A DNA stretch of 43,593 nt from Candidatus Poribacteria bacterium (GTDB lineage: Bacteria; Poribacteria; WGA-4E; WGA-3G): contig JAPPFM010000033.1 in the NCBI GenBank assembly GCA_028821605.1, forward strand, positions 29,916 to 73,508. Direction: 5' to 3'. A model generated the notes under the pieces. It saw only the letters and a list, made by a program, of their open reading frames with translations, was not told the DNA's origin and made no database searches. A program made the position numbers and the translations under genes. The stretch's first letter is position 1. Each line of letters starts with the position of its first letter. Positions 32,161 through 33,958 of this stretch are shown piece by piece.

Positions 32161-32250
32161 AGGACTTGCGCAGCTTCATCGCTGGCGAGGTTTTAAACCT
32201 CGCCAGCGGCGTGTGGTAGTCGTTGTTCGTAAGAAAATTGCGTAAGTCCT
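32161..32250. mobile_element. 90-bp miniature inverted-repeat element in front of the sulfurtransferase
   Basis: AGGACTTGCGCA (32161-32172) and TGCGTAAGTCCT (32239-32250) are terminal inverted repeats matching at 11 of 12 positions. The centre is a perfect 13-bp hairpin, GCTGGCGAGGTTT/AAACCTCGCCAGC, of the GGCGAGGTT family. An element with the same termini lies at 40239-40373. It ends one base before the AAAGGAG ribosome site of the next gene. Confidence 0.65.
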
Positions 32251-32266
32251 AAAGGAGTTATAACGA

Positions 32267-33106
32267 ATGATGGAAACCTATAAAGGTTATGAAAATCCAC
32301 AGCTGGTTATCTCTGCGGAGGAATTGAAAGGCACACTCGACGAGCAAACGTACTGCATCGTCGATACCCGACCAACTTATGAATATATCCAAGGACACAT
32401 CCCTGGGGCACTTCATTTAGATTTGTTCGGATTGAGCCTCATTGACACTCGAAAAGAGAGTTTTGATACCTTTATGTGGATGATAGCATACCTATTTCAG
32501 CAACGCGGACTCGATCCGAGCAAGCCGATTGTATGGTATGAAGACATCTCAGGAACGCGTGCCTCGCGAGGGTTTTGGTTCTGCGAGTACTTAGGGCATC
32601 CCGAAACCCGTTTATTGGACGGCGGCTTCAAGGCGTGGTTAGCAGCAGACGGACCTGTGAGTACAGCCGGTGTTGAGCCACCGGAGGTACCGCCTTTCCC
32701 AATAAACGCTCAACACGATATACACATGGATGCTGACGTGATCCGCGTCCTCCTAAACCGAAACGACTTTGTCCCACTCGATACCCGAACCGATGATGAA
32801 CACTATGGTAGGGTCGCTCGCGCAGAACGCGCAGGTGCGATTCCGGGTTCAATCCACATTGAGTGGCTCAATAATCTTGATGATGCAGGGGCTTTTAAAC
32901 CGGCTGACGAACTTCGGCAGATGTACGAAAATGTCGGTATTACACCGGAAAAGCAGGTCATGTGCTACTGACAGGGTGGATACCGCTCTTCACAAGCCTA
33001 CTTGGCGTTGCGACTCTTGGGCTATCCAAAGATAAGCAACTACATTGGCTCGTGGAAAGAGTGGGGTGACCGGCTGGATCTGCCGGTCGAAATTCCAGAA
33101 GTTTAG
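32267..33106 (+). CDS. Rhodanese/thiosulfate sulfurtransferase with UGA at the catalytic cysteine (probable selenoprotein)
   Basis: The frame encodes a two-domain rhodanese of 279 residues if UGA is read through. The N-terminal domain (about 15-130: [30 protein letters not shown]) has no active cysteine, as usual. The C-terminal domain (about 150-275) has the substrate loop [13 protein letters not shown] and [13 protein letters not shown]. The catalytic motif, normally YCQGGYRS, reads Y-UGA-QGGYRS: codon 235 (32969-32971) is TGA. The frame continues with [20 protein letters not shown] and [14 protein letters not shown] to a TAG at 33104, exactly the family C-terminus. AAAGGAG precedes the ATG by nine bases. 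Selenocysteine is the best reading; a recent TGC/TGT-to-TGA mutation is the alternative. No selenocysteine machinery lies in this window. Confidence 0.8.
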
Positions 33107-33130
33107 CAAGTTTCTAATGCGCGTATATCA

Positions 33131-33151
33131 GGGCACCTTCAATAGGTGCCC
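33131..33151 (+). terminator. Stem-loop after the sulfurtransferase
   Basis: GGGCACCT (33131-33138) pairs perfectly with AGGTGCCC (33144-33151) around TCAAT. It lies 24 bases past the TAG that ends the readthrough frame. There is no T run, so it may act as a 3' stabiliser or Rho-assisted terminator. Its place supports translation and transcription continuing to 33106. Confidence 0.5.
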
Positions 33152-33958
33152 TATAGGTTGGGTTGAACGTAGTGAAATCCAGCAGCTCCAGTGGGACGAA
33201 AGGTTTATAGAATTTACTCGCCGTAGAAAGAGTTCTTCGCCGATGTGCGCATTGTAAAGTATACTCTAAATCCCTCCTTATACATCCTTTTATTTTCTTA
33301 TACCATTTCTAATTGAATACTTTTCGATTACTAAAGTTTGGACAATTTCTGTCCATTTCATGTTGAGTTTTCAAGTATTTGTCGATTTTTCAATGAGTTT
33401 GACCCCTATTGTAACGTGAGTTTGAAAAAGTTTTAGGAATTATAGTAAAGCCCGAAAATACGTCAACATTTCATCGAGAACTCCCCATCGCAGAACCCTT
33501 CCCCGGTAGGGGCGGTTTCCCAACTGCACTCGGCACCAAGTGTACACTTAACTATGGACTTTACTATTTTTTACCGGTAAAGACGACAATGTATTTTACC
33601 AAGTTTTGTGCCAAGTCTCTAACAGCTCCGCGTCTATATCACTCCCGTTAGTCCCAAAGGTACTTTCAAGCGAAATTAGCGATTTTTATGGATATAATTC
33701 GCTTTTTCCCTGAAAATATTATATAATTCCGAGTTACATATAGTCTTTATTATTTAATATTGATTAAAAATAAAAATTAACCTATTGTAACTTAAGAAGT
33801 GTGTCAATTACCTCGTGATGGATCGCGATGACCTGTAGGAAGCAGAATATCAAATATTCACTCCACAGGTTAACGGTTGACTACGGTTCATTCTCAAACT
33901 CACGTTTATTGTAACTTAATATAGGGTGCCACCTAAAAGATTTTAAAATAAAGGTGAG
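33152..33958. other. AT-rich non-coding region with ATTGTAAC repeats
   Basis: About 0.8 kb with no credible gene. ATTGTAAC occurs at 33408, 33784 and 33908, the last two extended to ATTGTAACTTAA. AACGTGAGTTTGA (33413-33425) is repeated inverted and exact as TCAAACTCACGTT (33894-33906), bounding about 490 bp. Base composition is clearly more AT-rich than the flanking genes. Confidence 0.55.

Follow-up and report, generated by a model that had tools for sequence, protein, structure and literature searches.

A conserved in-frame UGA at the catalytic position of a poribacterial two-domain sulfurtransferase and a candidate distal SECIS element behind a proposed folded spacer

Gene content of the locus

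The window analysed here is a stretch of 43,593 nt from Candidatus Poribacteria (assembly GCA_028821605.1, contig JAPPFM010000033.1, positions 29,916 to 73,508 of the forward strand), and all unprefixed coordinates refer to it. It contains a reading frame that starts with ATG at 32267 and is interrupted by a sole in-frame TGA at codon 235, after which 44 conserved codons follow up to the TAG (Table 1). With UGA read as Sec the product has 279 residues, with UGA read as stop 234 residues. Pfam Rhodanese is matched in two stretches of the protein, and PDB 1e0c, Azotobacter vinelandii RhdA, aligns over nearly the full length (E 5e-40) with the TGA opposite the Cys of CQTHHRS. Both assignments of the first-pass annotation, a two-domain sulfurtransferase and a TGA at the catalytic cysteine in a frame that continues to TAG, are borne out by these alignments and by closer Cys homologues, which carry TGC or TGT at this codon. 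Two rhodanese domains with the catalytic loop in the second place the protein with SseA/RhdA (COG2897). As the score for the 3-mercaptopyruvate sulfurtransferase model NF008557 of NCBIfam is 98.4 bits and thus under the curated cut-off of 250, no substrate is assigned. The neighbouring genes (MATE transporter, LRR protein, hydrolases, MoeA) give no clue to the function of the sulfurtransferase. A second two-domain sulfurtransferase of Cys type, about 29% identical, is encoded in the same genome (G000:C44:37565-38395, L071).

The stem-loop that had been noticed downstream of the stop codon is indeed perfectly paired; it has no T run, and we do not call it a terminator. The gap that precedes the gene contains the palindrome CGCTGGCGAGGTTTTAAACCTCGCCAGCG (32180-32208), which occurs as a single copy in the window. 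Another inverted repeat borders it on either side (32161-32172 with 32239-32250). Palindrome and flanking repeat together look like a small repeat unit.

Table 1. Features of the sulfurtransferase locus. RNA positions in brackets count the U of UGA as +1.
Feature	Position	Strand	Basis or remark
Two-domain rhodanese/sulfurtransferase gene	32267..33106	+	Pfam Rhodanese in two stretches; PDB 1e0c match
In-frame TGA, proposed Sec235 in CYUQGGYRS	32969..32971	+	catalytic cysteine position by alignment
11-nt spacer from UGA to long hairpin	32972..32982 (+4..+14)	+	same length in all Sec forms
Long extended hairpin, 82 nt	32983..33064 (+15..+96)	+	consensus fold, z -4.57, pairing, third bases
Base stem of long hairpin	CCGCUCUU 32983-32990 with AAGAGUGG 33057-33064	+	helix 1 98.9% paired; covarying +18/+93
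Distal hairpin GACCGGC-UGGAUCU-GCCGGUC	33068..33088 (+100..+120); loop 33075-33081	+	z -3.32; 99.5% paired; wobble bases
TAG stop codon	33104..33106	+	open reading frame
9-bp perfect stem-loop, 24 nt past stop	33130..33152	+	no T run

Conservation of the TGA and Cys/Sec history

All close relatives in the searched collection belong to Candidatus Poribacteria, which are sponge-associated bacteria. At a cut-off of E<=1e-40, a homologue of the gene is present in 71 of 85 genomes of the phylum. Exactly one TGA and no other stop is found in 67 of these 71 genomes, while four lack the TGA and have Cys instead. At the catalytic column, relatives down to an identity of 66% all have TGA. One family, at 54-61% identity, contributes three members with TGC or TGT, and the distant homologues all have Cys. 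The in-frame UGA stands where homologues, the outgroups included, have Cys. The occurrence of TGA at the catalytic position is far beyond chance. The earlier argument that a random nonsense mutation would hardly strike this one codon is strengthened by the 67 genomes, and relatives with other nonsense or frameshift changes, which would have spoken for decay, did not appear.

Under translation table 11 the TGA is a stop codon, and a pseudogene, a sequencing error or a true stop yielding a 234-residue protein would each fit this reading. We consider such an origin very improbable. The same single TGA recurs in 67 genomes from many assemblies and is accompanied by no other lesions, the C-terminal part of the protein is conserved while many third bases vary, and truncation would remove the catalytic loop.

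In the maximum-likelihood tree, the Sec forms lie on one side of a branch (support 93/91) and are nested among Cys forms, a topology that favours a single Cys-to-Sec change in the history of this rhodanese. The three Cys-rhodanese genomes retain a TGA-containing selD and therefore probably decode Sec, although their rhodanese uses Cys.

Selenocysteine machinery and other UGA genes

The complete set of genes on which the first-pass annotation had made its proposal depend is present in the source assembly, with SelA at 600 bits, SelB at 353 bits, SelD at 359 bits and a tRNA-Sec with anticodon UCA located within about 400 nt of selB. The genome thus holds the full machinery for decoding Sec. Its selD contains one TGA itself; this TGA at the Sec position (CAGUAS) is found phylum-wide, the Cys-rhodanese genomes included (source genome: G000:C30:71201-72241, L012).

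Besides SelD, three families of UGA genes were checked. Single in-frame TGA codons occur in the source assembly in a SelW-like gene, in a carboxymuconolactone-decarboxylase (CMD/AhpD)-like gene and in several that are peroxiredoxin-like, at least six in number (G000 contigs C10, C50, C2, C16 and C41; L195, L197, L199, L200, L202, L203 and L206). The selenoproteome of the source genome is sizeable. In the SelD, peroxiredoxin-like and CMD-like genes, the SECIS loops read CGGGU, CGGUG, CGGGAU and CGGGCA at 16, 20, 21 and 24 nt, where the SelD and CGGGAU hairpins were identified by eye from the sequence.

A frame that stays conserved past a stop codon would also be expected if UGA were read as a different amino acid, by suppression or through an altered code. 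This possibility is more remote still than a pseudogene or true stop, as TGA serves as final stop in 6 of 61 homologues of the gene, the remaining UGA genes are members of classic selenoprotein families and the Sec machinery is complete. Pseudogene, sequencing error and code change were all rejected. That UGA 32969-32971 directs the insertion of Sec at the catalytic position of the sulfurtransferase is, judged from sequence, highly probable.

Conserved RNA structure downstream of UGA

Consensus folding yielded two hairpins downstream of UGA, the long hairpin and a distal hairpin with the consensus GACCGGC-UGGAUYU-GCCGGUC. Folding was expressed as z relative to synonymous-codon shuffles in which protein and codon usage were held fixed. 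Over the 123 nt that follow UGA, each of 24 Sec genes folds far better than its shuffles, with a mean z of -3.90, whereas the same 123-nt window of Cys genes gives -0.06. Five windows of the gene upstream to UGA range from -0.16 to 0.49. Divided into parts, the signal is strong for each of the two hairpins (Table 1) and amounts to just -0.88 for +1..+60.

Across 28 sequences, 97.9% of the cells of the structure are paired, compared to 29-44% when the partners are slid. The pair +18/+93 varies between C-G, U-G and U-A, and the pair +102/+118 changes from C-G to U-A. Two-sided changes are confined to these two pairs and correspond to few evolutionary events on the tree, which is why third codon positions were given more weight. 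Counted over degenerate codons with conserved amino acid, the third base is invariant at 0 of 114 codons before UGA and at 10 of 34 after it (Fisher p 1e-7). Three of the invariant bases fall into the base stem (+15, +21, +90), one into the inner long hairpin (+42), three into the distal stem (+105, +114, +117) and two into the distal loop (+108, +111); +6 alone lies outside. The distal loop contains an invariant UGGA, including G+108, and is nearly invariant as a whole. Both hairpins are lost in the Cys forms. The RNA following UGA is structured, conserved beyond the needs of the protein and tied to Sec.

Insertions or deletions between UGA and the distal hairpin are found in none of the Sec forms, and consequently there are no natural length variants that bear on the spacing idea developed below. 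A covariance model of the element, run on 60 genomes, recovered orthologous sites only and no second gene; its matches reached down to the Cys forms and, further out, to a single Cys homologue.

Candidate SECIS element and proposed folded spacer

The canonical bacterial SECIS has a loop of 3-9 nt with an early G on a stem of 4-16 bp, at 16-37 nt from UGA (PMC13188914). A simple stem scan detected a G-loop hairpin at 16-37 nt after UGA in 0 of 58 Sec genes. In 57 of 58, the distal hairpin is located 103 nt from UGA. Its loop UGGAUCU, its stem of 7-8 bp and its energy of about -14.6 kcal/mol agree with the SECIS rule, and the UGGAU in its loop is of the N-G-G-N type seen in the other SECIS loops of this genome. 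On the basis of this loop likeness and of the fit in loop, stem and energy, we name the distal hairpin as the probable SelB-binding site. Against this stands that the U-U of the distal loop does not make the N1-N2 pair which belongs to the published SECIS consensus. Some bacterial SECIS elements depart from the standard rule in ways that still lack a classification (PMC13188914), which leaves room for other readings of the structure.

One of these readings takes the long hairpin itself as the SECIS, with SelB touching part of it and the distal hairpin as an accessory that would cause pausing, stabilise the mRNA or guard against termination. In favour of this reading, the long hairpin begins a mere 11 nt past UGA, its folding signal is the strongest, and its apical loop, at about 49 nt, is often G-first. 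However, apical loop and apical stem are unconserved, with third bases +48, +54, +57 and +66 varying freely, and it is the distal loop and not this apex that is nearly invariant and similar to the other SECIS loops of the genome. We therefore regard this reading as unlikely.

A SECIS close to UGA, as the first-pass annotation had suggested with two short hairpins, is less probable again and has only a small chance of being correct. One of them, CAAGCC/GGCGTTG, is paired in just 79.8% of cells and was not upheld as the conserved element. The other, AGGGTGG/CCGCTCT at +5..+21, pairs in 98% of cells and includes the invariant third base G at +6, but shows no two-sided changes and loses a central pair in 4 of 28 sequences. 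Its loop starts just 8 nt past UGA, a position inside the mRNA channel when UGA occupies the A site. Against any near element stand the z for +1..+60, scarcely better than shuffles, and the lack of a hairpin that satisfies the 16-37 nt rule. The +5..+21 hairpin and the better-supported long stem share +15..+22 and are mutually exclusive. The +5..+21 hairpin (32973-32989) can almost always form and may represent an alternative fold before the ribosome arrives.

We prefer the distal hairpin as the site of SelB recognition. The catalytic thiol of the sulfurtransferase would be replaced by selenocysteine, with UGA decoded by the SelA/SelB/SelD/tRNA-Sec system of the cell. SelB would bind the distal hairpin through the loop UGGAUYU, and the 82 nt beginning 11 nt after UGA would fold as one long hairpin. 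With this hairpin folded out, the linear distance of 103 nt between UGA and the distal loop shrinks to an effective 21 nt, and the folded spacer would in this way bring the distal hairpin into the usual 16-37 nt. From these patterns we infer that Sec is inserted, that SelB contacts the distal hairpin and that the long hairpin acts as a spacer. Taken as a whole, a Sec sulfurtransferase with a distal SECIS delivered by a folded spacer is, to our assessment of the sequence data, fairly likely; the distal-hairpin mechanism of Sec insertion, considered on its own, we favour with slightly more reserve. That bacterial Sec insertion reads spacing in the folded rather than the linear RNA, and that a two-part class of SECIS elements thereby escapes standard predictors, has somewhat better than an even chance.

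Prediction of bacterial selenoproteins presumes a hairpin near UGA. If folding of the spacer can put a distant SelB site within reach, there would be genes that predictors have overlooked, and the way in which SelB gauges its distance to the ribosome would become directly testable. Selenoprotein engineering would also be less limited, as the SelB hairpin need not adjoin UGA. The single Cys-to-Sec change, together with Cys relatives in Sec-decoding genomes, offers a before-and-after view of the birth of a SECIS in coding sequence. The persulfide chemistry of a sulfurtransferase may moreover differ when selenium takes the catalytic position.

Comparison with known systems

Sec-containing COG2897 sulfurtransferases were reported from the Sargasso Sea in 2005 (PMC1088965) and from GOS metagenomes in 2008 (PMC2398784), and a 2026 review lists a rhodanese 'form 4' with the motif UxxG (PMC13188914; example record MCY3690685.1). 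The protein family is therefore not new. Of the initial description as a probable new selenoprotein, Sec at the catalytic position holds, and the novelty is that of a lineage within a known family. In the literature searched, with incomplete coverage, Poribacteria are not named among the sources of Sec sulfurtransferases, and no paper turned up that treats both Poribacteria and selenoproteins; within a similarly partial coverage of the bacterial SECIS literature, no folded spacer between UGA and SECIS is described. The COG2897/cd01449 Sec sulfurtransferases share with our protein the two-domain SseA type and Sec at the catalytic Cys within UxxG (here UQGG). For the Sargasso Sea member, a bacterial-type SECIS is reported (PMC1088965), whereas the poribacterial element is distal.

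The Azotobacter vinelandii protein (1e0c) is a full-length homologue in which Cys of CQTHHRS aligns with Sec, but it is a Cys enzyme with the loop QTHHRS in place of QGGYRS. Compared to the canonical bacterial SECIS, the poribacterial element has a similar 7-bp stem, a loop of 7 nt in which positions 2 and 3 are both G, and, once the long hairpin is folded out, an effective distance of 21 nt; it differs in its linear distance of 103 nt and in the conserved 82-nt hairpin in between. A recoding hairpin far from UGA is also known from archaea, where SECIS elements mostly reside in the 3'-UTR and tolerate distance, as in fruA of M. maripaludis with 88 nt (PMC9622424). In contrast to these, the poribacterial element is devoid of the archaeal GAA_A motif, lies within the coding region and occurs together with bacterial-type SelA/SelB.
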